Assembly: GCA_018333785.1 (NCBI GenBank)
Contig: JAGXSU010000057.1
Coordinates: 1 to 64,000, forward strand
Reading direction: 5' to 3'
Length of the DNA: 64,000 nt
Origin: Methylomicrobium sp.
GTDB taxonomy: Bacteria > Pseudomonadota > Gammaproteobacteria > Methylococcales > Methylomonadaceae
Within the stretch, counting starts at the first letter, position 1; every line of letters begins with the position of its first letter. The position numbers were made by a program, and so were the translations under genes. Positions 37,764 to 62,179 of the stretch are shown piece by piece. The notes under the pieces are model-generated. The model was not told the origin of the DNA. It saw only the letters and a program-made list of their open reading frames with translations, and did not search any database.

Positions 37764-38665
37764 CTGAAAATCCTCTCAAATATTATTTTACAAAACTCCT
37801 CTGCCTCTATTCGGGCTGGTGTGTTTTCGTGCATTTCGAATAATGATCGTGGATTAGCGTATGTTGACGAACTATTAGCATACGTTTGAAGATATCGCAT
37901 AGGTGGCTGAATAAGTTTATCTCCTAACACACTATTTTGTGACACTTGTTCTAGTGTTCGACGTTGTGCTGCCGATTGAGGGTCAAATTTAGTTGCTAAA
38001 ATACCTACTAGCATTAATTTTTCAGCTTCCCTTGTTTGATTTTCTGCTTGCCACAATTGAGCCATATCTGCCATACCCGCAATGGAATCCTCTTGCATTT
38101 CTGTAGGTATTAATAAGTGGGTTGCTGCGCGTGCAGCTGAGGCGGTTAGTGCTGACGTTTGAGGAGGAGTGTCAATAATTACCAAATCGAATTCTTCTTG
38201 ATAATATTCTATCGATAACATTGTGCGCATGTGATCAACCACTGCCTCTTGAACGCTCTTTCTTTCAACTTGTTCAAGAAAGTTTGTTAACTCTTTTTTG
38301 TGGGATGGTATGAAGTGTAAATTAGGGATATTAGTTGGATATGGCTCAACATATCCTAGTCTAAAAAATTGGGCTATAGACCAATATCCAGGTGGTGAAT
38401 ACGGTAACTCATCCCAAAGGGGATCCTTTGGATCAAAGTTTGGATGTAAAGGAGGGTCCATTCCATCATTTGTCATTTCTAGAAATCTTGCAGAAAAATT
38501 ACATTGTGGATCGATATCGATCCCTAAAACCCGCACACCTTCCCTAACTGAATATTCAGTTAATAATTTAGAAAGGGTTGTTTTGGCTACTCCACCTTTA
38601 TGATTGCTAATAGTAAGAACCTTTAAGTTAGAGTATGTCGGTATTATTGTTTGCTCTCTGGACAT
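37760..38665 (-). CDS. parA: ParA-like partition ATPase
   Basis: 301 residues from ATG 38665. The deviant Walker A is NHKGGVAKTTLSKLL (KGGVAKTT), the Walker A' region is VLGIDIDPQCNFSARFL, and the Walker B region is FDLVIIDTPPQTSALTASAA. It lacks the long N-terminal HTH of type Ia ParA, so promoter control may fall to ParB or the third gene. It is the first gene of parA-parB-orf; a 16-bp palindrome sits 37 bases upstream of the start. Confidence 0.92.
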   Translation of the reverse strand: MSREQTIIPTYSNLKVLTISNHKGGVAKTTLSKLLTEYSVREGVRVLGIDIDPQCNFSARFLEMTNDGMDPPLHPNFDPKDPLWDELPYSPPGYWSIAQFFRLGYVEPYPTNIPNLHFIPSHKKELTNFLEQVERKSVQEAVVDHMRTMLSIEYYQEEFDLVIIDTPPQTSALTASAARAATHLLIPTEMQEDSIAGMADMAQLWQAENQTREAEKLMLVGILATKFDPQSAAQRRTLEQVSQNSVLGDKLIQPPMRYLQTYANSSSTYANPRSLFEMHENTPARIEAEEFCKIIFERIFR

Positions 38666-44048: not shown

Positions 44049-44204
44049 TCAGGTATGCTTTAATAGAAGGGGGTTTGAAGTCCAGTTCGCCAGCAAGTCC
44101 GCCTCGCTCGGATTTTTGATGACATCCGCGTCGCCCCAGCTTCGCTGGTCCAGTTCGTGGATCACGGCAGCTTCAAATTCGGATTCTTTGGAAAAGGTGT
44201 TCAT
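44049..44204 (-). pseudogene. truncated type I restriction enzyme gene (hsdR start)
   Basis: The frame from ATG 44204 reads NTFSKESEFEAAVIHELDQR and then GDADVIKNPSEADLLANW, the known N-terminus of HsdR-type type I restriction subunits. After LLANW it diverges and stops at 44049 (51 codons). The truncation point coincides with a Tn3 inverted-repeat tip (44070-44084). The ATG overlaps the stop of the DUF1016 gene (ATGA), so the two were co-translated in an intact restriction locus. Confidence 0.7.
44070..44084 (+). mobile_element. tip of a Tn3-type inverted repeat
   Basis: GGGGTTTGAAGTCCA is identical to the first 15 bases of the 38-bp inverted repeat at 56737-56774 and close to that at 58513-58550. 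Only the tip remains, and hsdR coding sequence follows directly. It marks the break in hsdR. Confidence 0.5.
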
Positions 44205-45265
44205 GATTTTGCTATGTATTTCTGCTCTGCCAAGCGTTCTCTGATTTCAATCAAGGCGGTGTGGAGCTTGTTCTCCAAAACCGCCTTGGATGGCAGTTCC
44301 GTCCAATACTCCGCCACCATGATGTTGTCTTTTTGCAGGTTCATCAGCTCCACCTGCTCGGTGCCTGCTTGGGCGCACAGAATCAGGCCAATGGGCGCTG
44401 CTTCATCGGGCTGGCGTTCATACTTGTCCAGCCAGTTGAGGTAAAGCTCCATCTGCCCTTTGTGAGCCGCCTTGAAACGGTCAATCTTGAGCTCAACGGC
44501 CACCAGCCGTTTGAGGCGGCGGTGATAAAACAGCAGGTCGAGATAAAAGTCTTCGCCATCGATAATCATGCGCTTTTGGCGTTCTACAAAGGCGAAGCCC
44601 TTGCCCAATTCCAGGATAAATTGCTCCAGCTCGCGAATCAGCGCCTGCTCCAGATCGTTCTCCAGGTAGCCCTGCGGCAGGCCGAGAAAATCGAAAAAGT
44701 AAGGGTCTTTGAACGAGCCCGCAAGCGCATGGGTAACGTCGGTGGCTGTGGCCAGGGCCAGCTTGCTATCCGCAATGTGCGCGCGCTCAAAGGCTTTGCG
44801 CTCGATTTGCCGGATCAGTTCTCGCTTGCTCCACACATGGTCGATGGCTTGGCGGGCATAAAAATGGCGGGCTGCATCGTCTGGCAGCATGAGCAGAACA
44901 GTGAAATGCGTCCAACTCAATTGTGACACCAGCGGTGTCACAATTCCGATGTCGGGGAACATCTCCGCGAATTGCATCATGCGGCGCAGGTTTCTGGCCT
45001 CGAAGCTCTTGCCGTACTGCGCCACGAGCTCTCCGGCGAGCGACGGTATTACCTGCTTGCCATAGGCCGCCCGCTCGCCCCGCAACACGTCGGTATTGAT
45101 GCGTTGGCCCACCTGCCAGTAGGTCAGGGTCAGGGCGCTATTGACCGCAGCAACGGCTTGCGACTTCCCACGGCCGATGATCTCCCGCAAATCGGTCAAC
45201 AGCAAGGCGCTGGGCATGGAAGGGGCAGTCGAGGGTGTCGGGTCGTTATTCATGGGGGGGGTCAA
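44201..45265 (-). CDS. DUF1016 (YhcG-type) PD-(D/E)XK nuclease-domain protein
   Basis: 354 residues from ATG 45265. The N-terminal domain has REIIGRGKSQAVAAVNSAL, LTYWQVGQRIN and NLRRMMQFAEMFPD. The C-terminal nuclease domain shows GKGFAFVERQKRMIIDGED, YLDLLFYHRRLKRLVAVELK (the D-x-n-ExK active-site arrangement) and FKAAHKGQMELYLNWLDKYE. Proteins of this family often sit inside type I restriction loci, and here the downstream gene is the start of hsdR, supporting that origin. Whether it cuts DNA is unknown. With hsdR truncated and no hsdM or hsdS here, the locus is broken. Confidence 0.9.
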   Translation of the reverse strand: MTPPMNNDPTPSTAPSMPSALLLTDLREIIGRGKSQAVAAVNSALTLTYWQVGQRINTDVLRGERAAYGKQVIPSLAGELVAQYGKSFEARNLRRMMQFAEMFPDIGIVTPLVSQLSWTHFTVLLMLPDDAARHFYARQAIDHVWSKRELIRQIERKAFERAHIADSKLALATATDVTHALAGSFKDPYFFDFLGLPQGYLENDLEQALIRELEQFILELGKGFAFVERQKRMIIDGEDFYLDLLFYHRRLKRLVAVELKIDRFKAAHKGQMELYLNWLDKYERQPDEAAPIGLILCAQAGTEQVELMNLQKDNIMVAEYWTELPSKAVLENKLHTALIEIRERLAEQKYIAKS

Positions 45266-45807: not shown

Positions 45808-46562
45808 ATATAGCGGATTCAACAGCTCTTTTTAGGTTTATGGTCACGGATTAATGAAATTTCAGATTTAGTGGGAATAAACATAAATCTATCGTTACAA
45901 TTTAGATGTTTTAAATTAATGGTATTTGTTTCTACAAACAAATTCATTCAATAAAAACTGCAACAGTCTTGCCCTTTATGAGTAGCCTTAATCCTATTAG
46001 GGGTTAATTAACCAAAAGAACGGTTTGTCCCGACATCCATCTGGAACCCTTGGTATCACTGGCTTGCAGCCGAAAAATCGATTTCAAAATCGCCAATCAG
46101 TTTTTTGATAACCTCTTGAATGCTAAGAAGACTTCCCCGGTTGTAAAATTCATACATGAGCAGCCTTTCTCATGTGCAGAAAACACTGAGTACATAATAT
46201 GCGTATTGCTAGCCTTGCTCGCCCAGCGTGCAGAAAATTTTCGACATCGTTTGTTTAAACGTACCCTTCAAACTCAAAGTTATCTTTTGTGTCTATGGGG
46301 TGACCAGTCCACCCTGCGGTGTTCCGCTATTTAAAGTTGGAGAAAACATGGGCGCTAATTTCCAAGCTAGAAGCACGAATATTGATCTATAATATTAATG
46401 CATGGACCGGTTGAGCAAATGCTTGCCAGTTGGGGCTTTATTGTCTCAGCTATTGTGGCTTTCGAGCTATGATGGACTGGTCTTGGGTCGGTACGGCCGC
46501 CGGATCCGTGCAACTTTATTCCCAATGACAATAATTCTGTTTATCACTCAAAACTTGATATT

Positions 46563-48455
46563 TTAGGATTTTACCGATTTAGGCAATAGCGCAATAGCTG
46601 GGATTTTCTTTAGTAGCTTAACTAGTTCATATCGGGAATTAAGAAAAAGAGCATCATGAAACTCCTCAATATGCCCTTTTTCGCACTCTTTGGAATCAAG
46701 ACAAAGAGCCTTCTTAAGAGCCTGAAGAAGCTTGTTATTGCCTTTCTTTTTCCAGTAAAAAGTATGCGAAAAGCCTTTCCAAGGCGAGTCCAGAGGAACG
46801 TCTCTAATCCAATTTCCTAACTGTTTTTTGATAGGCCCCCCAATTATGTCACCCGAAAAGCCACAATACTTCGTCTTAAAATACAAGTTTGTCCATCTTG
46901 TAACGCCAAATGGGGCAGCGTGATGAAATACCACGAACGTGCGATGACTTTTTGAGAGTGGATCTTGATAGTCCAACTCATATGTCATTCGGTCCAATGA
47001 AATTTTGCCATCTTCTTTCATGCGGTCAGTGGGCTCCAATGGACAAAGCTCTGTTTGTGGGGGACAGGTAGGCAGTATACGAGCTTTTTTCAATTGATTG
47101 AAGGAGGATTTATTGGCCGTGATTAGGAAATCAGAATAGGTTAAAGGACTACCAAGGGTGACGAGATCAGTGATAAGCCAGGGTTGGCAGTTTACGCGCT
47201 GCTGAAACCATGCGGCATGTTGCTTCCTCCTAAAATCAACCGTGTGCTTCTCATCTTTATTAAAAAATGCACTCTTCTCGACCTCGATTATGTCTTCGAA
47301 CATTGGGTTAGTTGGCTGTTGGTGTTTATCGTGCATGCGCATCCAGGCGTACGTGATAATGTCATAAGCAATAACCGAACCCAGACTGTGACCAACCAAC
47401 ACGATGCGATCGTATTTTCCAGAGTTGTGTAGTTTCTCGATAAAGTTTACTCCCGCTTGCCGGATAGTATGGCGGTGTGCGATATTCGCTGGATGCGGAC
47501 GTAGGTAACGTGCGGCATCCCCGATGTAGTTGATCGCTAATCCTTTGAAGAACCCCAATAGCAGTGATACTAACAAAGCTACTATTCCCACCGAAGAGAC
47601 CAAGGCAATCCAGCGCGCAATTTCGATGCCAACGGACGATGCAATTGTCGCCCCTACCGCGATTAGGATCACTAGCCAAGTAAAACTCCAGAATGGGAGT
47701 AACTTGCCAGGCACTGACCTGGGGTGCCGGAACATCAGCGATAGCAGCCAGGAAGATATTTGGTTTAACGTAGTGTCACGTATAATATGTGCCCAATAGA
47801 ACTCATAAACATCTGTTCTAGGCATTTTCTTTGTTCCTTTAATCGTTACCTGGCGCAACTCGTACGAATCAGAGTAGTCATCTGGTTTGATCCACTTTGT
47901 AATATGACTACCATCCTTTTTGTCTTTGTCTTCGAATACGCCGCTATCAGCTAGGCTGTATAGCGTTTCGCCTGGCTGCTGCTCACCAATGCCGTGGATG
48001 ACCACCACAGCTTGGCGCACTTGTTTCCGGCGTTTGTTAATCTTTCTGGCGAGATCACAGAAATAATGAAGGCGTCTATCCCAATAATTATGTACCTCTT
48101 CCCAGTATTTGGTTGGGATGTCCGATTCCTTTACTGTAATCTTGCTGTGAGAGTCATCTATGCGGTTGATGAAGATAATTGCGAGGGTCTGATCGCCTTG
48201 AGGCCAGGATGATGGTCGATCAATGAGAATTGTGATGGACTTAGGTGAATTGACTTTCTGAATACGTGCCGTGCGCCACCAGTCGAGGGTTGTAATGGTT
48301 TCATCCGACAAGTGCAAGAAAGCTCCAACCTTAAGTTCAACATCGGCCTGCCGTCCAAGGAAATGTAACTGACCATCTCCACGCCAAACCAGATCCCATG
48401 CATCTTGGCGTGAGAGCGGAATTATCATAGATGAAGAGTATTCTCGGCTGCTCAT
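46563..48455 (-). CDS. SRPBCC-lipase fusion membrane protein
   Basis: 630 residues from ATG 48455 (a TTG 18 bases upstream is possible). The first ~145 residues resemble an SRPBCC/START-like ligand-binding domain (RQDAWDLVWRGDGQLHFLGR, GAFLHLSDETITTLDWWRTA). Then QAVVVIHGIGEQQPGETLYS begins an alpha/beta-hydrolase. Two membrane helices (LVILIAVGATIASSVGIEI, ALVSSVGIVALLVSLLLGFF) interrupt it. The nucleophile elbow is IVLVGHSLGSVIAYD, with a later LVTLGSPL. An esterase or lipase joined to a lipid-binding domain in the membrane is plausible; substrate unknown. It stands alone between element remains. Confidence 0.75.
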   Translation of the reverse strand: MSSREYSSSMIIPLSRQDAWDLVWRGDGQLHFLGRQADVELKVGAFLHLSDETITTLDWWRTARIQKVNSPKSITILIDRPSSWPQGDQTLAIIFINRIDDSHSKITVKESDIPTKYWEEVHNYWDRRLHYFCDLARKINKRRKQVRQAVVVIHGIGEQQPGETLYSLADSGVFEDKDKKDGSHITKWIKPDDYSDSYELRQVTIKGTKKMPRTDVYEFYWAHIIRDTTLNQISSWLLSLMFRHPRSVPGKLLPFWSFTWLVILIAVGATIASSVGIEIARWIALVSSVGIVALLVSLLLGFFKGLAINYIGDAARYLRPHPANIAHRHTIRQAGVNFIEKLHNSGKYDRIVLVGHSLGSVIAYDIITYAWMRMHDKHQQPTNPMFEDIIEVEKSAFFNKDEKHTVDFRRKQHAAWFQQRVNCQPWLITDLVTLGSPLTYSDFLITANKSSFNQLKKARILPTCPPQTELCPLEPTDRMKEDGKISLDRMTYELDYQDPLSKSHRTFVVFHHAAPFGVTRWTNLYFKTKYCGFSGDIIGGPIKKQLGNWIRDVPLDSPWKGFSHTFYWKKKGNNKLLQALKKALCLDSKECEKGHIEEFHDALFLNSRYELVKLLKKIPAIALLPKSVKS

Positions 48456-48557
48456 AGAATCATTCTTTAGCAAAAGTGTTTGGTTTCGGCGCGATTATAG
48501 AATGATTAGATAGTCAATGGCGTAATTCCGCCTAAATCGAACCGGAAAGAAAAAATA

Positions 48558-48743
48558 GATTGCGATTATTGGCTTTATAAGGGGCGGCACGCAATCGAAT
48601 GTCTGTTCGGCAAGCTCAAGCACTACCAGGGTTGCCACCCACAATGAGAAAAAAGCCAACAATTACATGGGGATGATCTAGTCCGTCCTTTTGTGGCTAC
48701 GATGAAACGTCAACAGAACCTATTAGTTTCTTGTCTAATTTAA
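48558..48743 (+). pseudogene. IS5-family transposase C-terminal remnant
   Basis: The plus-strand frame reads DYWLYKGRHAIECLFGKLKH, then QGCHPQ, an in-frame stop, and RPFVATMKRQQNLLVSCLI to TAA at 48743. The RHxIExxFGKLKHxR pattern is the last catalytic segment (DDE glutamate) of IS5-type transposases. The rest of the element is missing. It marks the left border of the cargo block at 48784-56546. Confidence 0.65.
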
Positions 48744-48783: not shown

Positions 48784-50166
48784 TCACTCAATCCTATATG
48801 AGTTGCCCCTCCGCTCTGTTCGAAAGATTTTTTGGCTCTTGTCTATCCACCATCGCAGTTGCACTTCCGGGCTTTCCTGAATTTTCCGTTGGTATTCATT
48901 CTCCGAGATCTCCCCGCATAACCTTTTCCTACGAAGCTCGGGGTATGTATTCTTGTAGAACACCTCATAGCTTCGGTGTGGTGCTCTTGAAAGACCCCAG
49001 CAATCGGCTTGCTGTAGGTCGTGTTCGTATTCCTCTTTGCTGAGCCTTTCCTTGAAGAGCTGGCAGTTTTGCCCCCCCGGATAGAAGAACGGGTTCTCCG
49101 TTCCCGTTTCGTAGGGCGCTTCTGTTTCTGTTCCCAAGCTGTCTGCAAGCATCTCCAGTTCCCTGAGCAGTTCGAGGAGTACTTTCTCGTTACCTGCTGC
49201 TGGCATCTCGTTCAGGAACTCCGTCTTGAGCTGGGCGAGCTTGTGTGAGTATGATTGAAGAAGGAACTCACCATTCAGGGTCAGGTTGAAAGTTCCTCCG
49301 AAGTAGGGGATTGCTGTGCATCCCTTGCAGCATTCCAAGAATCCCCCTCGCCATGCTTTCATTTCTTCCCTTGCAAGGTGTTCTCCCGGTTTCCCGGTCC
49401 ACCTTTCCATTTTTGCCATTGCATGGTAGCAGGGAAGTACCAGCGATCCATCAGGTCCGATCGTGATCACTTGGCTATTCGCCGAACACGGAGGCATTTG
49501 GTGTTTGTTCTTGGCCTGCCTCTTGAAAAATCGTGCGAAATGGAGGTGGACGATTGCGTTGGGGGCGAAGAACTTTTCCCGGATTGCCAGTTCCACATCG
49601 TCGTGTTCTTTTCCGCCTTCGAAGTATTTGAACACGGGACTTAGGTAGGCCGTGGCCCCGTGCTTTCTAGCAAAAGCCAGAATCTCGTCCAGTTCATCCT
49701 TGTTTTCATCCGTGACCACCACCATCAGTTTTGGTGGTTTAATCTTGCTTGTTTCCTCGATTGTTGTCACTACTTCTTCAAGCCGGTCGATGCCTCGTGC
49801 TCGCTTGTATCGTTCTGGGCTCAGGGTGTCGAGCGAAATGTTGAATTTGTCGATCCACGGAAGGCATTCTATGAGCCGGTTTCTTGCTTCACTTCCGCCT
49901 GTGCCATTGCTTGTGACTTCGGTCTTGATTCCCAGCGCCTTGCATGCTTTGAGGAGCGCCTTCAACCCTTTATGGAGGTTCGGCTCCCCTCCAGTGAAGT
50001 CGATGTATCGCACGCCAGCTTCGTGGAGTTCCTCAATTACCCGTTTCCCTTCGACTTCGTCAAGCTCTGCTTTTCCGCTATATCTTTGGTCACTCCAGAC
50101 ATTGCAGTATTCACATCGAGAATTGCAACGGAAGGTGACATAAAATTTCGCAGCGAATGGTTTCAT
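48784..50166 (-). CDS. radical SAM protein with extra C-terminal cysteines
   Basis: 460 residues from ATG 50166, preferred over the ATG at 50181 because GGGAG lies about nine bases ahead. The [4Fe-4S]-SAM motif is VTFRCNSRCEYCNVW (CxxxCxxC). FTGGEPNLHKGL is the GGE motif, followed by EVTSNGTGG and FNISLDTLSPERYKRARG. A C-terminal part has cysteines at PPCSANSQV, VLPCYHAM and LECCKGCTA, resembling a SPASM-like second cluster site. Such enzymes modify peptides, sugars or cofactors by radical chemistry. It follows the malQ-type operon on the same strand after a frameshifted gene. Confidence 0.9.
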   Translation of the reverse strand: MKPFAAKFYVTFRCNSRCEYCNVWSDQRYSGKAELDEVEGKRVIEELHEAGVRYIDFTGGEPNLHKGLKALLKACKALGIKTEVTSNGTGGSEARNRLIECLPWIDKFNISLDTLSPERYKRARGIDRLEEVVTTIEETSKIKPPKLMVVVTDENKDELDEILAFARKHGATAYLSPVFKYFEGGKEHDDVELAIREKFFAPNAIVHLHFARFFKRQAKNKHQMPPCSANSQVITIGPDGSLVLPCYHAMAKMERWTGKPGEHLAREEMKAWRGGFLECCKGCTAIPYFGGTFNLTLNGEFLLQSYSHKLAQLKTEFLNEMPAAGNEKVLLELLRELEMLADSLGTETEAPYETGTENPFFYPGGQNCQLFKERLSKEEYEHDLQQADCWGLSRAPHRSYEVFYKNTYPELRRKRLCGEISENEYQRKIQESPEVQLRWWIDKSQKIFRTERRGNSYRIE

Positions 50167-50267
50167 GTCTTCTTCTCCCATTTTGCGGTAGAAACTGTAG
50201 GCATAATTCCTTCCTTTGCGATCGCTTAACGAAAGATTTTAAAAGATAAGATGATTGCGGTAGAAAT

Positions 50268-50856
50268 TCATTTTAACCTCAACTTATTGTAGTCATTCTT
50301 TAAATAATCCAGAGTCAATTTTACTTGCTTGTGAAAATCTTCTGGGTATGGATGTGGTTCGATCTTCTCTAAACTTGATTTTCCCTGTTCTTTCCATAAA
50401 AAATAAAGACAGTTAGAAATAGATTGATGATTTATAAAGTTATCAAGGCTTTTTTGTGTTTCTCCGTTTTCTAACTCTAGAAGATAAGATTTAGCATTGA
50501 TTAGTTCAGCCATTTTTGACTGAATTGGGAGAAGATAAAATTCGAAAAAGAAGTTCCAAACTTTGGAGTCATCATCTTTGAACTCGTCCCACTTTACTTT
50601 CCTCGCATCGTTGGGCAATATTTTTTTAGCAACTCCGTAGATAGCTTGATTCTGTTGAATCATACCCCATAGCGGACCATACAATTCTTCTATTTGCTGC
50701 CGCCGATATTCTAATTTTGCTTCCAGTTTCTGCTGTTCTCTGAGACGGCGTTGTTCTACTCGCCATCCTTGGACAGTCAGAATTGCCGTTGACTGCGGCG
50801 ACCAGAGCGACGATAGCACCAATTAGAGCTGCTAAAATTGTTGAATCTACGTTCAT
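50268..50856 (-). pseudogene. small membrane-anchored helical protein gene, frameshifted
   Basis: One frame gives ATG 50856 and the membrane helix STILAALIGAIVALVAAV. After a one-base shift near 50790 a second frame gives TAILTVQGWRVEQRRLREQQ then LEYRRQQIEELYGPLWGMIQ to the stop at 50268. Together they form one ~195-residue protein with an N-terminal anchor and a coiled domain. It is disrupted unless the shift is a sequencing error. It is AT-richer than its neighbours and sits between the aminotransferase and the radical SAM gene, so it was probably inserted into, or appended to, the cluster. Confidence 0.65.
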
Positions 50857-50952
50857 TGCAAAATAAGTCTCCATCGTACGATCAAAGATAAATAGAAGTT
50901 CATTCCCAGCAAAGGGGGCAGAAAGGATTCATACAAAGTGTTGCTTTAGAGT

Positions 50953-52242
50953 TTATGCTTTCTTTGCTTTTCTCAGTACGTTCCTAAGGAGTCCGAGGCC
51001 TTCCTTCAAGTCACCTTTTGAGATATTGAGAGGTGGCGCCAATCGGATGATACAACCTCCCAAAAGAGTTTTGACCCCCTCGGTCATCGCAAGTCTGAAC
51101 ACCCTTGCTGCGTGTACTTCGTCTGGCTCCTTTGTCTTTCGATCCTTCACGAACTCGATAGCCCCCAACAACCCAATCGACCTTGCATCGCCAATCTCGT
51201 TGAATTCCTCCCTCAGCTTATCCAGTCGTTCTTTGAGGTCTTTTGCGCGCTCAGCCACATTCGCTTTTGTTTTATCCGCATCCATCGCCTCCAGGGTCGC
51301 TGTGGCAGCCCTCAGGCTGAAGGGATGGGACGCAAAGGTTGCAGAAAACTCTCCCGGTTGCTCTGAGATCGGGTTCCGGCTTACTTCGTCCCGAGCGGTT
51401 ATCACCGCAAACGGGAAACCCGACGCGATTCCTTTCGCAAGGATTGCGATGTCTGGAGTAATTCCTAATTGGACCGAAGCCAGAAACTCCCCGGTTCTGC
51501 CGCCGCCGGTTAATATTTCATCGGCCGCTGTTGTGATCCCTTCGCTTTTGCAGAACTGACCAATTTCCTCCCAGTATCCTTGAGGGGGGATAATAACTCC
51601 CCGAGCGCCCATCACCGGCTCAAATATCAGTGCCCGTGCGTTGTGTTTCTTGAGGTTTTGGCATGTTTCCTTTGCACAGGCAATCTCGCATCCTGGGTAC
51701 TTTTTCTCCAATGGACAGCGATAGCAGTATGCCGGCGTTCCCTTGGCGTTGTTTTGGAAAGATCCTCTTCCCGGCACATCTCCTTCTTCTGCGTCCCGAA
51801 TCAGACGCTTTGCCCCAAGGGTTTTCCCGTGGTAGCCCTCGCGGATGGCGGCTATCGTCACTGGTTTCTTCCCGTGGTGGTTCACGATTATCCTGATTGT
51901 TGCCTCGACCGCTTCCGCGCCTGTTGTCAGGAAAACAAACCGGTTCAAGTGTATTGGAAGCCGTTCCTTGAGCATCCTCATGAGTTTGAGACGTTCTGGG
52001 TATGGGAAGTCATGGATATTCCCGAGTTTCCCAACTTGCTCCCGCAGAGCTTCGATCACATAAGGATGACAATGTCCCACAGCGTTTGTCAGGATACCTG
52101 CGGAGAGGTCGAGGTATTCCCTGCCATTGGTATCATAGAGCCGGCTTCCTTCCCCGCGTTCGAAGCAAATCCCAGCCTCCAGCGCCTCCGCCGAGATGCC
52201 TCTGACTAGGCCTTCTGCAATTTCCGTCTCAACGTAGTTCAT
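50953..52242 (-). CDS. class III PLP-dependent aminotransferase
   Basis: 429 residues from ATG 52242, which overlaps the previous stop as ATGA. The fold-I motifs are intact: GREYLDLSAGILTNAVGHCH, FLTTGAEAVEATIRI, GYHGKTLGAK, ALIFEPVMGARGVIIPP, AADEILTGGGRTGEFLA, and PLP-binding Lys in IAILAKGIASGFPF. An insert YCYRCPLEKKYPGCEIAC near residue 170 has five cysteines and resembles an insert I recall from some clostridial and archaeal aminotransferases. It transfers amino groups from a 4-aminobutyrate-, ornithine- or sugar-like donor. Its place beside an NDP-sugar epimerase and an SDR suggests amino-sugar or amino-acid conversion, but this is inferred. Confidence 0.92.
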   Translation of the reverse strand: MNYVETEIAEGLVRGISAEALEAGICFERGEGSRLYDTNGREYLDLSAGILTNAVGHCHPYVIEALREQVGKLGNIHDFPYPERLKLMRMLKERLPIHLNRFVFLTTGAEAVEATIRIIVNHHGKKPVTIAAIREGYHGKTLGAKRLIRDAEEGDVPGRGSFQNNAKGTPAYCYRCPLEKKYPGCEIACAKETCQNLKKHNARALIFEPVMGARGVIIPPQGYWEEIGQFCKSEGITTAADEILTGGGRTGEFLASVQLGITPDIAILAKGIASGFPFAVITARDEVSRNPISEQPGEFSATFASHPFSLRAATATLEAMDADKTKANVAERAKDLKERLDKLREEFNEIGDARSIGLLGAIEFVKDRKTKEPDEVHAARVFRLAMTEGVKTLLGGCIIRLAPPLNISKGDLKEGLGLLRNVLRKAKKA

Positions 52243-53333
52243 ACTTTCTGGGGTCTCGGCATCTCTTCCTTCCAATCCTTTGTCACCTCCCTGAGGCTTC
52301 CTGTCGCCACGCCGACCGCTCGCATGGCCTGTGTCGTTCCGTAGCGATCCAGCATTTGGAAGTGGGGTTCAAGTCCCTTGATTTGCCGTAGCGTCGTTTC
52401 GAGTCCGGGACATAGGGCTAGAATGTGTTCGATCATCCGACCACAGTAATAACGCCGGTAAGGAACGTTTTTCTCGATGGATTGTTTCGCTATCCAAGTA
52501 TGGGTGATCTTCTCCCGTTCCTCCGGATGGTAGAAGCGCCACGGCCCGTGCCTTGGATCTTCCCTGGTGAAGGTTCCCTGCGCGCAACTCCAGACCGTGT
52601 CAATCATCGGCGTCATTTTCTCCCAGATTCCATGGTCCTTTGCCATCATTGCAATAAGGCGTTGTTCGACGAAGAGGAGTTCTGGCTTGATAATGTTGAA
52701 AGTGCCGCCGACGAAATTATTTTCCATGAACCGTATCACCTCATCTGTGTATGCCTCCATGAATTTCCGGTCATTGAAACAGACGATAGACGTGTTTGCG
52801 GCCATAACGTCGAAGTCCCACTCATCCCTCAATTTGTATTCTTTGGGCAATTTTAGTGATTCCCTTGTCCCATACCAGTAAGTCTGCGGGTGAACATCCT
52901 CCCAATGGGTAAATACGAGCGCATTTTCCGCGACCGTTTTCTCGTCAATCCGGTTCCACAGGACCAAGTCCACGTCCAACAATATGCAGGGGGCTGTTTC
53001 CTCTCGGTATGCGAAGAACTTCCCGACAGAGTAGAAGCAGGAATTATCGAAAACTCCGGGCCGGATGTTTCTGTCGAGTATTGTGTCATCAAACACATCC
53101 CAGCACCCAAGCAAGCCTTTCTCGGATAGGTAGCGAATCACGTTGCTGTCACCGTAGAGTTTCAATCGACTTTTTGGGTAAAGGTCTTTGTACTTTAGCG
53201 CCGACAGTACGAATGTGAGCAGATAGTAGTCCTCGAATTTTTGCTCTAGGTTCACTCCTCGGTTGGGTTGTTCGTTGCCGCCACAGGTTCTTTCCTCCAG
53301 CGGGCTGCTCCAGAATACGTGGAACGCGTTCAT
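52239..53333 (-). CDS. DUF6734-like / glycosyltransferase-like protein
   Basis: 364 residues from ATG 53333, overlapping the SDR stop (ATGA); an ATG three codons upstream is less well placed. The opening MNAFHVFWSSPLEE, LTFVLSALKYKDLYPKSRLK, LYGDSNVIRYLSEKG and the acidic APCILLDVDLVLWNRIDEKT (a DxD-like metal site, DVDLV) resemble a GT-A fold protein of the DUF6734 type. Later ENNFVGGTFNIIKPELLF and the histidine-rich middle are unusual. Glycosyl transfer is plausible but not proven. It sits fourth in the coupled operon. Confidence 0.65.
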   Translation of the reverse strand: MNAFHVFWSSPLEERTCGGNEQPNRGVNLEQKFEDYYLLTFVLSALKYKDLYPKSRLKLYGDSNVIRYLSEKGLLGCWDVFDDTILDRNIRPGVFDNSCFYSVGKFFAYREETAPCILLDVDLVLWNRIDEKTVAENALVFTHWEDVHPQTYWYGTRESLKLPKEYKLRDEWDFDVMAANTSIVCFNDRKFMEAYTDEVIRFMENNFVGGTFNIIKPELLFVEQRLIAMMAKDHGIWEKMTPMIDTVWSCAQGTFTREDPRHGPWRFYHPEEREKITHTWIAKQSIEKNVPYRRYYCGRMIEHILALCPGLETTLRQIKGLEPHFQMLDRYGTTQAMRAVGVATGSLREVTKDWKEEMPRPQKV

Positions 53334-54037
53334 GATTTGCATGTTTGCCCTCCGTCGGCGATTAGATTTGTACCGTGCAGGAAGCTAGCTTCCGGTGAGC
53401 ACAACCAAAATACTGCATTTGCGATTTCTTGAGGTTTCGCGAGTCGATGCAGTGGGATGGCCTCTTTGATAGTGTCTTTACTTGTGGCGGTCATGCGGGT
53501 CTCTGTTCCCCCCGGCGAGATAGCGTTAATTCGAATATTTTGGTTAGCATATTCGTTGGCAGCTGCTTTCGTCAGCCCGATCACCCCATGTTTGGCGGCA
53601 ATGTACGCCGCCGATGTCTCGGCCGTTGCCGTAATTCCAGCAATCGAGGCGTTGTTGACGATAATTCCATGGCCTTGAGCAAGCATGGCCTTCAGCTCTA
53701 TCTGCATGCACCGGAAGATGCCGTTAAGGTTTGTGTCGATGATGTCCATCCAATCCTCCTCATGGATTTCGTGGATTGGCGATGGGGCGCATCCGCACCC
53801 GGCGTTGTTGAACGCAATGTCGATCCCGTCTCTCCTTGCGACTTCCTCAATACTTTTCCTAACCTCCTCTGGGTTCCGCACGTCCATCCGGTGAAAGTAC
53901 ATCCCAGATGTGATTGGCTTCCCCCTATTGTTTGTTCCGCAAACATGAACGTTGTCTCCGTTTTCGAGGAATCGTTTTGCGGTAGCCAGTCCGATACCCG
54001 AGGTTCCTCCGGTGATGAGTACGGTTCTTTTTTTCAC
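53330..54037 (-). CDS. short-chain dehydrogenase/reductase
   Basis: 235 residues from GTG 54037. The start overlaps the epimerase stop by four bases (GTGA); the longer frame upstream only overlaps the epimerase. NAD(P)-binding TGGTSGIGLATAKRFL (TGxxxGIG), NNAGCG, the catalytic Ser in NASIAGI, and YIAAKHGVIGLTKAAA (YxxxK) are all present, with the ISPGGTETRM region at the end. It oxidises or reduces a hydroxyl or keto group of a sugar or amino-acid-like substrate made by the other enzymes. Confidence 0.92.
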   Translation of the reverse strand: MKKRTVLITGGTSGIGLATAKRFLENGDNVHVCGTNNRGKPITSGMYFHRMDVRNPEEVRKSIEEVARRDGIDIAFNNAGCGCAPSPIHEIHEEDWMDIIDTNLNGIFRCMQIELKAMLAQGHGIIVNNASIAGITATAETSAAYIAAKHGVIGLTKAAANEYANQNIRINAISPGGTETRMTATSKDTIKEAIPLHRLAKPQEIANAVFWLCSPEASFLHGTNLIADGGQTCKS

Positions 54038-55029
54038 GTTTTTTGCTGTTCTCCTTGTCCCTGGAACCACGCCACTGTTTTCTCGATCCCCATTTCCAGG
54101 GAATGGGTCGGTTCGAAACCTAGGAGCCGTTTTGCTTTTTGGAATGACATGGATTGGAAATGGAGTTCGCCTCCAGTGATTTCTTTCATGGTGCATCCAC
54201 CTTCGTAGCCTGCTTTCAGGGAGATCATCTCGACAATCCTGTCCACCGTGTAGCATTGCCCTGTTCCCAGGTTGAATACTTCACCGAGGTACATCCCCAT
54301 TTCCAATGCCCCGATAGTCCTTTCCAGGCCGTCTATAATGTCCTCAATGTATATCAGGTCCCTCTGGAACAACTGTTTTCTTCCGTCCATGTCGCGGAAG
54401 TAATGGACCACAGGTTGTTTTCCTTCCCGGATCTGCTTCAGTGTTCTTGGGACAATCCGGGAGTCATTGCGATCCCATGCACCATAGACATTGCAGAACC
54501 GAGTTACGATTATTGGGACGTTATAGTTTCTCCAAAATCCTCTGGCAATAGTGTCTGCGCACGCCTTGGATATGTCATAAGTATATTCTGGTTCGAGCGC
54601 TTCTGTCTCCACATAGGCAGTTCCCATTCCATTACCGTAAACTTTGTCGGTTGAGGCAAAGATAACCCCTTTGATTTGGCCTGGGTTGCGCCTTATAGCT
54701 TCCATGACGTTCCACGTTCCACGAACGTTCGTCTCAAATGTATCCAACGGGTTGTTGGCGGCGGCTCCAACCGTAGCACTTGCCGCCAAGTGGATTACGT
54801 AGTCGACTCGGTGTTTTTCGAGGATTCTTTCAATTTTCTCAATGTCCTCAATTTTGCCTTCGTGGACTATCGCGCCTTTCAGATAGTCTCCAGTTTCTGC
54901 TTCTTCTTTTGGAACGAGTGCCACAAATTGAGCGCCCTTTGGGGCCAGGTTCAGGTATAGATTCGTCCCGATAAATCCTGTCAGCCCTGTGCAGAAGATT
55001 GTTTTTTTCTCGTAGTCAGTAGCTTTCAT
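54034..55029 (-). CDS. NAD-dependent NDP-sugar epimerase/dehydratase
   Basis: 331 residues from ATG 55029, overlapping the malQ stop (ATGA). Cofactor loop FCTGLTGFIGTNLYLNL (TGxxGFIG), DYVIHLAASATVGAAANNPL, GVIFASTDKVYG (the catalytic Thr position), the pair YTYDISKAC (YxxxK), RFCNVYGAWDRNDSRIVPRT and FNLGTGQCYTVDRI. This is an extended SDR like CDP-glucose 4,6-dehydratase, GDP-mannose dehydratase or UDP-sugar epimerases. The exact activity cannot be read from the sequence. It is the second gene of the coupled operon. Confidence 0.92.
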   Translation of the reverse strand: MKATDYEKKTIFCTGLTGFIGTNLYLNLAPKGAQFVALVPKEEAETGDYLKGAIVHEGKIEDIEKIERILEKHRVDYVIHLAASATVGAAANNPLDTFETNVRGTWNVMEAIRRNPGQIKGVIFASTDKVYGNGMGTAYVETEALEPEYTYDISKACADTIARGFWRNYNVPIIVTRFCNVYGAWDRNDSRIVPRTLKQIREGKQPVVHYFRDMDGRKQLFQRDLIYIEDIIDGLERTIGALEMGMYLGEVFNLGTGQCYTVDRIVEMISLKAGYEGGCTMKEITGGELHFQSMSFQKAKRLLGFEPTHSLEMGIEKTVAWFQGQGEQQKT

Positions 55030-56546
55030 CGGTGGCTCTTCTGGTTTGGGAGTCTCCCGTAAGTTTCGGCCAACTTACAGAGCCTTGCTTGGTGGGCTTC
55101 CGTGAACTGGCCTTCCTTGAGCCGCCAGCGCCACCCGTTGATTTTTCCTGGACAATTTGTTCTTGCAGAGTTATCAAGCTCAAGTACATCTTGCATGAGG
55201 ATGATCACGGTGTCGGCAATGCTCATGTAGGCAAGCCTATGGATGTTCCATAGAATTTCCTCTGGCATAATTGTGTTGGTGTATTCCATTGCTCGGTCCC
55301 TTATTTCGGGGTGACTTTCGTGGAGATAGCTCTGTAAGGTCTCGTTATCGTGGGTACTGGGATAGACTACATTCCGGTGAGTTTTGTAGTTGTGGGGAAG
55401 GTGCTCGTTGTGCAGTTTGCCGTCGAAGGCGAATTGCAACACCTTCATCCCTTGCCATCCGATTTTCTCCAGCACATCCTGCACTTCTGGAGTTATTATC
55501 CCGAGGTCTTCAGCCAAGACTGTTCCTCCCTCTTCCTTCGCAGCGGCATCGATTGCCTCTGCTATGGCGAGCCCGGGAGCGTCTTCCCACCTGTTAAGGT
55601 AACGCTCCTCCGGTCGTGCGTGGATTTTGTAGAATCGTCTCAGCCCGATGAAATGGTCGATTCGGATGATGTCATAGAGGCGTGCGTTTCTTTTAATCCT
55701 CTTTTTCCACCAGCTGAAATTTTCTCTTTCCATTTCCGCCCAATTGTAGAGCGGGTTTCCCCAGCACCGTTCCGTGTCTGCGTACGCATCCGGCGGAACA
55801 CCCGCAGCGGCCTTCGCCTCGCCATCTTCATCCACTTGAAAAAGGTGGCGTTGTTCCCACACGTCAGCACTGTCCAGCGACACGTAGAGGGGACAGTCAC
55901 CGATGATCGCTATTCCGTTTTTTGCTGCATTGGCCTTCACGGCCTGCCACTGGGTCTCAAATTCAAATTGACAGAACTTCCAGAATGCGACTTCGTTCGC
56001 GAGAGCCCTTGTGTATTCTTTTTTGGCACCCCTGTCTCCACGCCGGATCGCCGCTGGCCATTCCATCCACGGTTTATCTCCATGGTAAACCTTAATTGCC
56101 CGGTATAGGCAATAGCCCTCAAGCCACTCCGCGTTTTCCTCTTCGAAGCGTTCTGCTTCCTTGGTCTTCCCCACTGTTTGGGCTCGGACGAATGCTTTTT
56201 GCAGGATAGGCCGCCGCGTTGCGTAGATTCTTCCGTAGTCTATTGTGTCGCTTTGATCGACGAGCGGCACAATCTCATCCTCTTTGAGAAGTCCCTTGCT
56301 TACGAAAATGTCGAGATCGATGAAGTAGGGATTTCCGGCGAATGCCGAGCATGACTGGAACGGGCTGTTGCAGGAGGGGGTCGGCAACATGGGCAGCACT
56401 TGCCAGTATTGCTGCCCAGCATTCTTTAGTTCCCGAAGGAACTGGTGCGCCGCTTCCCCAAACGTCCCAATTCCATAGCGTGAAGGGAGCGCGCTGATTG
56501 GTAACATGATTCCAGCACCGCGCCGGTCAAGTTTCGGTAGTTTCAC
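55026..56546 (-). CDS. malQ: 4-alpha-glucanotransferase
   Basis: 506 residues from GTG 56546, the length usual for MalQ; the frame is open for 55 codons further upstream (to 56711), but these do not look like MalQ. Motifs in order: GIMLPISALPSRYGIGTFG, FAGNPYFIDLDI, NGIAIIGDCPLYVSLDSADV, GVPPDAYADTERCWGNPLYN, YDIIRIDHFIGLRRFY (catalytic Asp), GGTVLAEDLGIITPEV (catalytic Glu), and STHDNETLQSYL (catalytic Asp). It remodels alpha-1,4-glucans (maltodextrin, glycogen). Being the first gene of a coupled operon of sugar-nucleotide genes is unusual. A Tn3 inverted repeat lies 26 bases beyond the open frame. Confidence 0.92.
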   Translation of the reverse strand: MKLPKLDRRGAGIMLPISALPSRYGIGTFGEAAHQFLRELKNAGQQYWQVLPMLPTPSCNSPFQSCSAFAGNPYFIDLDIFVSKGLLKEDEIVPLVDQSDTIDYGRIYATRRPILQKAFVRAQTVGKTKEAERFEEENAEWLEGYCLYRAIKVYHGDKPWMEWPAAIRRGDRGAKKEYTRALANEVAFWKFCQFEFETQWQAVKANAAKNGIAIIGDCPLYVSLDSADVWEQRHLFQVDEDGEAKAAAGVPPDAYADTERCWGNPLYNWAEMERENFSWWKKRIKRNARLYDIIRIDHFIGLRRFYKIHARPEERYLNRWEDAPGLAIAEAIDAAAKEEGGTVLAEDLGIITPEVQDVLEKIGWQGMKVLQFAFDGKLHNEHLPHNYKTHRNVVYPSTHDNETLQSYLHESHPEIRDRAMEYTNTIMPEEILWNIHRLAYMSIADTVIILMQDVLELDNSARTNCPGKINGWRWRLKEGQFTEAHQARLCKLAETYGRLPNQKSHR

Positions 56547-56736
56547 CTCGGTGTTTGGTTTTTGTGTATCCCGCCTTAGCGTATCGCCTTGCATGACGGC
56601 ACCACCATTTTGCAAACAACCAACGGCTTGTCCATAAGGTGTATCCCAGAAGTTAATTCTTCTTTGATTTGTTTGACTAGGTGTTGGCTTATCTCTCAGA
56701 AATTGATTCATAAATGATTCTCTGTCGCGTAACTAA

Positions 56737-56774
56737 GGGGTTTGAAGTCCAAAGGTACGAAAACGTACGTTAGC
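56737..56774 (+). mobile_element. Tn3-family 38-bp inverted repeat
   Basis: Starts GGGG and contains ACGAAAAC and ACGTTAG at the same positions as the known Tn3 38-bp end (GGGGTCTGACGCTCAGTGGA then ACGAAAACTCACGTTAAG). A second copy in the same orientation is at 58513-58550. The GGGG edge faces the malQ operon, so the transposon body would lie to the right, where a resolvase remnant is found. Confidence 0.75.
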
Positions 56775-56903: not shown

Positions 56904-57263
56904 CTAATCTAACCCGCCAGACCCAATTTTGTCGCCTTCTTTAGCTTTTTTCGTAGACGCAAGGATTCGATAGACGGTAGCCTCCCCGATGTTCAACTGC
57001 CTGGCAATCTTGGATTTTGCTAAACCACTTTCGGCTAGACTAACGACTTCTTGACGTAACTCTGCGGCCAGTGGTGTCCGACCTTTATACTTTCCTGCTG
57101 CTTTAGCTTTAGCCACACCTTCTCTTTGCCGCTCCAGCATCATTTCCCGCTCGAATTGGGCTACACCGCCCAAGACTGTCAGCATCAGTTTTCCGGTTGG
57201 GGTCTGAGTGTCCATGCCGAGATTAAGAATTCGTAAGCCAACCTGTTTTTGCTCCAGTGTTTT
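56904..57263 (-). pseudogene. serine resolvase/invertase C-terminal remnant
   Basis: The frame reads KTLEQKQVGLRILNLGMDTQ and then TPTGKLMLTVLGGVAQFERE, MMLERQREGVAKAKAAGKYK and a final helix-turn-helix (GLAKSKIARQLNIGEATVYR), the second half of a Tn3-type serine resolvase. The catalytic N-terminal half with the nucleophile Ser is gone; homology stops near 57264, where an inverted-repeat element begins. An internal ATG at 57215 would allow a 103-residue DNA-binding piece. Confidence 0.85.
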
Positions 57264-58512: not shown

Positions 58513-58550
58513 GGGGGTTGAAGTCCAGTGGGACGAAAACGTACGTTAGC
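58513..58550 (+). mobile_element. Tn3-family 38-bp inverted repeat, second copy
   Basis: 28 of 38 positions match the classical Tn3 end by eye, including GTGG, ACGAAAAC and ACGTTA; it differs from the copy at 56737-56774 at only a few places. It is in the same orientation as that copy. No transposase gene is found to its right, so it is a relic. Confidence 0.75.
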
Positions 58551-60893: not shown

Positions 60894-62179
60894 TTAGGCA
60901 TAGCGGTATCCATCGGGTTGTTGAAGTAATTTGTAATATTTGGCGTTGGCCGTAATTTTGGCGGGCTTACCCTTGCGAGTCACTCGAATATCGAGTCGGC
61001 CGTCGGCGCGAATGCCGGCCAGGTTTCCCCGCCAGCGTCCCGCATATTTGCCGGTGGGCTGATCCAGTTCGACATAGGCGCCGATTTTGAAGCCTTGGTA
61101 GTCGGTGCAGGCCCGAGCCGCACCGCGCGGAAAACCGAACCGGTCGCGTTTCTGGTTGAGCCGGGTACCGTGGCCGGCGCACATGACGTTTAGCGGTTTT
61201 ATCGAGGGCACATGCAAAACATCCACATACCCCACGCAGGCGGCATCGGCCCAATGGCTTTTGGCAATACCCAGGCGAGAGCGATTGAATTTGGTTTGGC
61301 CGCCTGTGCCTGTGTCGACAGGCAAGCCAATGGCTTTCAATGCGTTGAACAAAGCCCAACGGGTGCTGTTGACGGCGGCGGCATCTTTGAGAGGGGTATT
61401 GGTTTGGCTCAGAATCCTTTTCAACAGGTCGGGCTTGCGTTTCAAGAACTGCTCGACGGGCTGTGCGCCTTTCCGACCGTTGCAGTCGTGGCAAGCCAAG
61501 GTCAAATTGGACACCCGGTTCGAGCCGCCATTGGCCTTGGCAACGATATGCTCAACTTCCAACGGCAAATCGCTTTTTCCGCAATAGGCGCATTGGCGGC
61601 CCCATTTTTCCAACAGGTACTCGCGGATCTCGTAACCGGCCAGCGTGCCTTGTTGATACGCCACACCCGTGATGTCCGGGTTTTGCATCAACTGCATGTC
61701 GAAGCGGACCAGTTCCTGAGCGATGGCCGTTACCGGCACAAATTTCAGTAACCGAGTTACCCAGGTCATCGTCGTGTCTACCCGGTGCTGCAAGGAAGGA
61801 GCCAGCCATCCGGCCGGTGTCGGTTATTGAACCGTGGTGCCCGATAGCGGGTATGACGTTGCCGGCGTCCACGGCGGTAGGCCCGTCGATCGGCAAGCTC
61901 ATTCCGGATCATTTGCCCGCGATGGTTGAGTTCGATGCCCGCCAAAACGGTCGAGCCCCGATTGAAATCGCCTACTAAGGCGATGCCGGTGGTTTTTGAG
62001 CCGGGATCGAGCTTGAGCGTGACGGGCTGAACGGTGCCGCCCACACGGTCCTTCAAAATGATCGTCATCGGAAACCGCCGGAACACGGCGGCCTTGCCGT
62101 TGGACAGCAGGCGTCTTGCGCGTGCCGGATGGCATGGCATCAAAGGGTTGCGCCGACTGTCGAGAACCAAAATACGCAT
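60894..62179 (-). pseudogene. iscB: IscB RNA-guided nuclease gene with one frameshift
   Basis: Two frames join at about 61800. The first (ATG 62179) has the RRXRR start VLDSRRNPLMPCHPARARRL, RuvC-I with Asp in KLDPGSKTTGIALV, and RRGRRQRHTRYRAPRFNNR. One missing base (17 instead of 18 in GGCTGGCTCCTTCCTTG) shifts into LQHRVDTTMTWVTRLLKF, RuvC-II Glu region AIAQELVRFDMQL, the HNH motif CAYCGKSDLPLEVEHIVAKA then CHDCNGRKG, and RuvC-III with His and Asp in KSHWADAACVGY. The total is ~428 residues, the usual IscB size. All catalytic residues survive. Without repair or frameshifting no full protein is made. Its guide RNA is directly upstream. Confidence 0.88.

Follow-up and report, generated by a model that had tools for sequence, protein, structure and literature searches.

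Six genes of a probable conjugative plasmid from Methylomicrobium, with links to streptomycete acarbose-type clusters

A block of six full-length genes lies on the minus strand (48784-56594) of the first 64 kb of contig JAGXSU010000057.1 from Methylomicrobium sp. (assembly GCA_018333785.1, genome 5.0 Mb). This stretch of 64,000 nucleotides, referred to below as the window, belongs to a contig of 74,056 bases. The block is real and it is one unit. Its class III aminotransferase and its radical S-adenosylmethionine (SAM) enzyme are linked by their relatives to the acarbose-type clusters of streptomycetes, and its six genes share a codon use that sets them apart from the plasmid backbone. The reading that we favour, with middling confidence, sees in the block a compact gene set, spread by horizontal transfer, that is related to the amino-sugar half of the pathway to acarbose-type pseudo-oligosaccharides and does without the cyclitol half. 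What is unusual is the cyclitol-free combination, its plasmid home and a conserved radical SAM gene for which no assigned role was found.

Gene order and codon use of the block

The genes of the block, and a broken gene that lies among them, are as follows.

55026-56594, minus strand: MalQ, a GH77 4-alpha-glucanotransferase, the first gene (PF02446, 509.5 bits; NCBIfam PRK14508.1-3, 546.7 bits)
54034-55029, minus strand: nucleoside diphosphate (NDP)-sugar 4,6-dehydratase/epimerase-like protein (STDKVYG and YDISK motifs; PDB alignments; TIGR01181, TIGR02622 and GalE all under cut-off)
53330-54037, minus strand: short-chain dehydrogenase/reductase (SDR) family oxidoreductase, adh_short_C2 (PF13561, 180.3-180.4 bits; GTG start inside the GTGA overlap)
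52239-53333, minus strand: DUF6734-like protein, a presumed GT-A-type glycosyltransferase (PF20508, 50.4 bits; D-x-D in LLDVDLVLW)
50953-52242, minus strand: class III, pyridoxal phosphate-dependent aminotransferase of the acarbose-cluster type (Aminotran_3; best plasmid match; tree)
50268-50874, minus strand: broken gene in two frames, outside the unit (open reading frames (ORFs) 50626-50874 and 50268-50822; backbone-like codon use)
48784-50181, minus strand: radical SAM enzyme of the acarbose-cluster subfamily (CX3CX2C and four conserved twitch-type cysteines; start at 50181 or 50166)

An earlier note, made from the letters of this DNA, had named the six families, and Pfam matches bear out all of them (Epimerase PF01370 160.7 bits, Aminotran_3 250.2 and Radical_SAM 86.4, besides the scores above). 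None of the six reading frames is interrupted, and each spans its family. The same note had described five genes joined by ATGA and GTGA overlaps. There are indeed four such 4-base junctions, located at 55026-55029 (ATGA), 54034-54037 (GTGA), 53330-53333 (ATGA) and 52239-52242 (ATGA), and the radical SAM gene does lie beyond a frameshifted gene that separates it from the aminotransferase gene. MalQ may start at 56594, 56546 or 56711. The epimerase-like protein carries STDK, presumably a CDP-glucose-type motif, and YxxxK, and it scores 147 bits with TIGR01181 (cut-off 365), 127 with TIGR02622 (cut-off 278) and 121 with GalE. Across three libraries its top score is to the phage sugar-epimerase family phrog_540 (205 bits), above every Pfam and NCBIfam model. 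The broken gene has no plasmid relatives at 1e-5, and its assignment to DUF3080 was discarded (15.8 bits against a cut-off of 26.5).

The link between the sixth gene and the other five comes from codon use. Leave-one-out codon distances were calculated against the five overlapping genes and against 13 backbone genes, which were hand-picked from the ORF lists and labelled by ourselves; the SDR and aminotransferase stretches started 12 and 33 bases before the starts now preferred. Each of the five, and likewise the radical SAM gene, is nearer the five than the backbone, with distances for the radical SAM gene of 0.70 and 1.45, respectively. No backbone gene comes nearer to the five than 1.14. 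The broken gene shows the opposite pattern (1.44 to the five, 0.91 to the backbone), as do 12 of the 13 backbone genes, the exception being a DUF1016-like gene at 44204-45265 (1.26 to the five, 1.44 to the backbone). By codon use all six genes fall together and the broken gene falls with the backbone. The six were therefore probably imported as one unit, into which the broken gene was probably inserted later. This agrees with the transferable unit that the earlier note had proposed; a comparison of codon use with the backbone was one of the checks that it had suggested.

Relatives in streptomycete acarbose-type clusters

The first link to Streptomyces was established by tblastn against 72,556 plasmid records, with the aminotransferase and the radical SAM protein as separate queries. 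At E<=1e-60 the aminotransferase finds one record, Streptomyces NBC_00467 (42.8% identity, 339 bits). At E<=1e-40 there are 95 records, and the next among the 30 of these 95 matches that were listed reaches 194 bits and 34%. The radical SAM protein finds two records at E<=1e-10, and the better one is again Streptomyces NBC_00467 (30.1% over 96%). The second, from Bernardetia, was set aside: it covers residues 8-306 only (64% coverage) and has different gene neighbours. In NBC_00467 the two genes are about 17 kb apart in one cluster, whose annotation includes a sedoheptulose-7-phosphate cyclase, MalQ, a dTDP-glucose 4,6-dehydratase, kinases, sugar nucleotidyltransferases, a glycosyltransferase and an ATP-binding cassette (ABC) exporter. 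Judged by these gene annotations, the cluster appears to be of the acarbose type. The earlier note knew of no named system with this gene set; that statement has to give way, since the best relatives of the aminotransferase and the radical SAM enzyme lie near each other in Streptomyces acarbose-type clusters, together with MalQ and 4,6-dehydratase kinds. The best plasmid records for the epimerase-like protein and MalQ are not NBC_00467.

The link is not confined to one plasmid. Genome contigs were scanned with a two-row alignment whose patterns came from the window protein and one Streptomyces radical SAM protein. This yielded 22 loci, of which 18 are streptomycete (17 Streptomyces and one Kitasatospora) and run from residue 2-11 to residue 414-454. 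The other four (Gillisia, two Brocadia and Persephonella) are partial, and none of them matches a model of the C-terminal region (0/4). The aminotransferase was counted in 17 of the 18 streptomycete genomes, and each of the 17 has a single match at E<=1e-60, with 21-34 candidates scored per genome and identities of 41-47%. In 16 of the 17, the aminotransferase, the cyclase and the radical SAM relative are on one contig, the aminotransferase 6.1-18.7 kb and the cyclase 2.4-27.9 kb from the radical SAM relative; contigs were taken as the same when their number and length agreed. The exception is S. murinus, where the aminotransferase and cyclase are on a contig of 12,028 bases and the radical SAM gene is on one of 28,089 bases. 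One streptomycete genome has an aminotransferase match that spans residues 184-435 only, and in one the cyclase match contains one TGA.

Which genes keep company with these three? Sixteen streptomycete stretches, each extending at most some 30 kb to either side and less at contig ends, were compared with the NBC_00467 proteins at 1e-10. Relatives of its radical SAM, AKR, GMC, PfkB, HAD, RmlD-like, ROK, nucleotidyltransferase, glycosyltransferase, phosphotransferase, ABC, aminotransferase, cupin and cyclase proteins occur in all 16. Others are patchier: MalQ in 12/16, RmlA in 9/16, NUDIX in 7/16, two glycogen-synthase-like proteins in 2/16 and 0/16, and the dTDP-glucose 4,6-dehydratase in 9/16 at an identity of at least 55% (11/16 at any identity). 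In a tree of 28 aminotransferases the window protein joins the 18 streptomycete sequences with a support of 100/100, apart from six plasmid aminotransferases and three from its own genome. The earlier note had proposed a search for the six families co-occurring in the same order. Co-occurrence of the aminotransferase and the radical SAM enzyme stands, whereas the order was not found elsewhere: DUF6734 relatives are absent from the 16 streptomycete stretches, and there are none in plasmids, phages, viral contigs or 348 other genomes of the phylum.

Seen from the other side, 4 of 20 proteins of the NBC_00467 region have relatives on the 74-kb contig (tblastn, 1e-3), and all four relatives are within the block: the radical SAM enzyme (30%), the aminotransferase (43%), the dehydratase (28%) and MalQ (24%). 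The remaining 16 reference proteins have none, among them the kinases (ROK and PfkB), the nucleotidyltransferase, the HAD phosphatase and the Streptomyces-type glycosyltransferase. Nor is an AcbC-like sedoheptulose-7-phosphate cyclase found on the contig. The genome has one PF01761 (3-dehydroquinate synthase) match, a 365-amino-acid open frame which is presumably AroB, and no second one; the same model does detect the streptomycete cluster cyclase (9.6e-36). With the cyclase, kinases and other components missing from the contig, the block cannot be classified as an acarbose cluster. It resembles the amino-sugar half of such a pathway, with the cyclitol half absent.

What if the block is instead a fragment of an O-antigen or capsule locus? 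In this scenario the DUF6734 transferase would put an NDP-amino-deoxysugar on a glycan, and MalQ and the radical SAM enzyme would be passengers. An NDP-sugar dehydratase, an aminotransferase and a glycosyltransferase-like protein together are a common O-antigen theme, and the phage-family score of the epimerase-like protein also speaks for this idea. However, O-antigen aminotransferases are usually of the DegT type, not class III, and the aminotransferase and radical SAM enzyme of the block point to acarbose-type clusters. In addition, MalQ shares its codon use and an overlap with the other block genes, and no flippase or polymerase was recognised in the ORF lists, for which no dedicated search was run. 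The earlier note had also considered that homologous clusters might always be part of capsule or lipopolysaccharide loci, which is not what was found. A surface-polysaccharide origin is unlikely.

Plasmid setting and flanks

Within the window are genes for a ParA-like protein (37763-38665) and a phage-type integrase (33009-34742), and the last 10 kb of the contig (64001-74056) carries genes with the F-type conjugation domains TraC, TraF, TraH and TraG. These genes make it probable that the contig is all or part of a conjugative plasmid, although no search aimed at relaxases was made. The right flank of the block matches 35 plasmid records (11 from Aeromonas, four from Methylomonas, with Methylotuvimicrobium as the top match) and the left flank matches 12, headed by Methylomonas. 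The borders are marked by the following features.

48560-48725, no strand assigned: IS5 transposase remnant, left border (blastn to annotated IS5 transposase genes of Azotobacter and Polaromonas plasmids)
56737-56769, plus strand: Tn3-type terminal repeat, right border (repeat present once)
56904-57215, minus strand: resolvase fragment of a neighbouring element (PF00239 and PF02796)

The IS5 remnant reported in the earlier note is thus confirmed by blastn. Its second border, a Tn3 inverted repeat at 56737, fares less evenly. The repeat is present, resembles a Tn3 terminal repeat and lies beside the resolvase fragment, but no partner in the opposite orientation was found in the window at <=3 or <=2 mismatches. 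These features therefore do not amount to a complete Tn3 element around the block. A second Tn3-type repeat lies about 1.8 kb away at 58513-58540 on the plus strand, in the same orientation as the first. By blastn, an annotated Tn3 transposase gene also aligns with bases 46011-46154 or thereabouts.

These flanks bring up the possibility that the block is what decay has left of a full acarbose-type cluster after loss of the cyclitol half, and that its surviving genes have no joint product. Such decay would fit the IS5 and Tn3-like debris on both sides and the backbone-like broken gene inside. It would also fit the absence of contig relatives for the cyclase, kinases, nucleotidyltransferase and ABC exporter, and of a second PF01761 match in the genome. 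Nevertheless, six frames remain open and cover their families, and five of them overlap tightly. Moreover, MalQ, the epimerase-like protein and the DUF6734 protein are not the Streptomyces versions, so the block appears to have been assembled differently, not trimmed. We consider a decayed remnant distinctly improbable.

Two neighbours may be mentioned here. Beside the block, at 46563-48473 on the minus strand, is a gene for a 636-amino-acid protein that matches nothing in Pfam or NCBIfam at 0.01 and has the hydrolase-like stretches VVVIHGIGE and GHSLGS. At 60894-62179, also on the minus strand, two overlapping ORFs both match RRXRR, one of them together with HNH, a pattern resembling an IscB-type nuclease gene that a frameshift has divided.

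Proposed chemistry and known systems

If the block is a relative of the amino-sugar half of acarbose-type biosynthesis, how might it work? The host RmlA, for which there is an above cut-off match on another contig of the genome, would supply dTDP-glucose. The epimerase-like protein would form a 4-keto-6-deoxy sugar nucleotide, and the AcbV-type aminotransferase would turn this into dTDP-4-amino-4,6-dideoxyglucose. The DUF6734 protein, as a GT-A-type glycosyltransferase, would then transfer the amino sugar onto a malto-oligosaccharide, and MalQ would lengthen or trim the glucan. Finally, the radical SAM enzyme and the SDR would oxidise and reset a sugar carbon by chemistry like that of BtrN and other twitch-type dehydrogenases. 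We infer each of these reactions from the kinds of enzyme present, and with them the substrate nucleotide, the transferase role of the DUF6734 protein, the order of steps and the product, which is probably an amino-sugar-capped starch fragment simpler than the acarbose-type inhibitors of starch enzymes. The earlier note was right that the enzyme kinds for NDP-sugar, keto and amino steps are present beside a glucan enzyme. Its suggestion of a peptide-linked product finds no support, as the 19 full-length radical SAM relatives, 18 of them from the genome scan and one from the plasmid search, lie with sugar genes as far as they were examined.

In the radical SAM enzyme eight cysteines are invariant in 19 of 19 aligned rows: C19, C23 and C26 (CX3CX2C), C232, C251, C285, C288 and C394. 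C285 and C288 form a CX2C that ends the set of four further cysteines, and the other five cysteines of the window protein are unique to it. A twitch domain binds one auxiliary cluster. In BtrN four cysteines hold this cluster, and the enzyme converts 2-deoxy-scyllo-inosamine by oxidation into the ketone (PMC6231123 and PMC9012708). With moderate to low confidence, the favoured assignment is therefore a sugar dehydrogenase that has the SDR as its partner. What it shares with BtrN and SpeY is CX3CX2C, the four further conserved cysteines of which the last two are CX2C, and the core fold (BtrN 4m7t, Z 13.8, root-mean-square deviation (rmsd) 3.4, 214 aligned residues; SpeY via Foldseek). What differs is that identity in the fold alignments is 18-19%, that MoaA, SuiB, BlsE and PqqE rank higher, and that the subfamily has a C-terminal region with an invariant CW..R.PH motif.

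This C-terminal region is included in the full-length relation within the subfamily. Its model matches only the genome of origin among 349 of the phylum (at most the best seven candidates per genome scored), only the genome at the centre of the search among 346 Actinomycetota genomes (same scoring), and one of 294 Planctomycetota genomes, weakly and over 73 positions (at most the best nine scored). A single-protein scan of viral contigs for radical SAM relatives found none. Sixty-two viral loci that match parts of the protein, all within residues 2-247 and at 22-37%, were taken as ordinary radical SAM cores.

Could the enzyme be a lyase or dehydratase instead? A DesII- or AprD4-like enzyme would remove an amino or hydroxyl group and the product would be a deoxy sugar. 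DesII acts on TDP-4-amino-4,6-dideoxyglucose, which is the proposed product of the aminotransferase. DesII structures are also among the fold matches of the predicted structure (8hzv_C, Z 17.9, rmsd 3.9, 280 aligned). However, that model has a predicted local distance difference test (pLDDT) score of 69, and SuiB, BlsE, PqqE, MoaA, viperin and DesII rank close together, so that the fold ranks do not separate the candidates. The fold search, made on a predicted structure as the earlier note had proposed, does not settle the reaction. The four further cysteines, invariant in 19 of 19, suggest an auxiliary cluster, and DesII is not known to have one. The subfamily also sits in streptomycete acarbose-type clusters, where the amino group would presumably be kept. 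Removal of a group by this enzyme is a doubtful proposition, and an improbable one.

The DUF6734 protein is presumed to be a GT-A-type glycosyltransferase on the basis of its motif. It matches PF20508 over residues 4-239 with 50.4 bits against a gathering cut-off of 27. The D-x-D of LLDVDLVLW aligns with a D-x-D in the PF20508-matched stretch of 7/7 Bacteroidota loci, which are all the loci found, with no selection for the motif. No paper mentioning DUF6734 was found in the literature search.

Several observations weigh against the pathway proposed above. The scan patterns favour Streptomyces-like matches, and differently shaped relatives may escape them. The window aminotransferase sits on a long end branch (1.78), and the tree program warns of branch lengths and of differing composition. 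The radical SAM protein, for its part, shares just 33-37% identity with its aligned relatives; for both reasons the substrates may have changed. Compared with the streptomycete stretches, MalQ reaches 21-26% (12/16), the epimerase-like protein 24-26% (10/16) and the SDR 28-40% (6/16), so that these are matches at the level of families and not close counterparts, and a DUF6734 relative is missing from all 16. The ABC exporter and the phosphotransferase of the Streptomyces cluster have no relative on the contig at 1e-3. In the radical SAM model, pLDDT is below 50 at 226-236, 252-258, 280-282 and 284-301, around most of the four extra cysteines, and the twitch reading consequently rests on sequence. 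The single-sequence structure model of the DUF6734 protein, also proposed in the earlier note, has a mean pLDDT of 32 and is unusable.

To which half of the acarbose-type pathway does the radical SAM step belong? Probably to the half concerned with amino sugar and glucan, rather than to the cyclitol half, because the block shares the aminotransferase, the radical SAM enzyme and the MalQ and 4,6-dehydratase kinds with the streptomycete clusters. In the literature searched, no role assigned to this conserved gene was found. No paper was found that joins acarbose or trestatin biosynthesis with a radical SAM enzyme, though subscription papers were mostly outside the search and a role may be in print. 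In one review (PMC6804068) acarbose and radical S-adenosyl occur apart, the latter in the title of a cited yatakemycin paper. Two papers on clusters for amylase inhibitors and trestatin in streptomycetes (PMC13240717 and PMC12498427) contain no 'radical' wording in their main texts. Perhaps the enzyme turns a glucose or aminodeoxyglucose unit of the oligosaccharide into the warhead for which acarbose depends on the sedoheptulose-7-phosphate cyclase pathway, and the same enzyme is an unrecognised tailoring activity in streptomycete acarbose-type clusters. This would amount to a cyclitol-free route to a glycosidase inhibitor, and it is very improbable. More soberly, the block offers a natural experiment, on a small scale, in acarbose-type chemistry, and it places such a gene set on what is probably a conjugative plasmid, at a great distance from the actinomycetes.

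How does the block compare with known systems? In Actinoplanes, AcbI couples dTDP-4-amino-4,6-dideoxyglucose and maltose to 4-amino-4,6-dideoxyglucosyl maltose, and an AcbV-like aminotransferase is found in most putative pseudo-oligosaccharide clusters (PMC9200736); AcbQ modifies acarbose (PMC10146171). By kind of enzyme, the block would share with this acb cluster the aminotransferase step to dTDP-4-amino-4,6-dideoxyglucose, the coupling to maltose and the 4-alpha-glucanotransferase (AcbV, AcbI and AcbQ; PMC9200736), the likeness to AcbV being judged via the streptomycete cluster aminotransferases and not AcbV itself. It differs in having a DUF6734 protein in the place of AcbI, in adding a radical SAM enzyme (the main text of PMC9200736 has no 'radical' wording) and in a contig without relatives of the streptomycete cyclase, kinases, nucleotidyltransferase and glycosyltransferase. 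With the Pfam family DUF6734 the block shares the D-x-D, whereas the other members found are from Bacteroidota (5 of 148 genomes) and of low similarity (best phmmer value 4.6e-7, against one of them). From the acarbose/trestatin-type clusters of Streptomyces and Kitasatospora, which combine PfkB, GMC, AKR and radical SAM genes, it differs in its distant MalQ (24%) and dehydratase (28%), which are of the same families with no sign of orthology. What it has in common with these clusters is the class III aminotransferase and the radical SAM subfamily.

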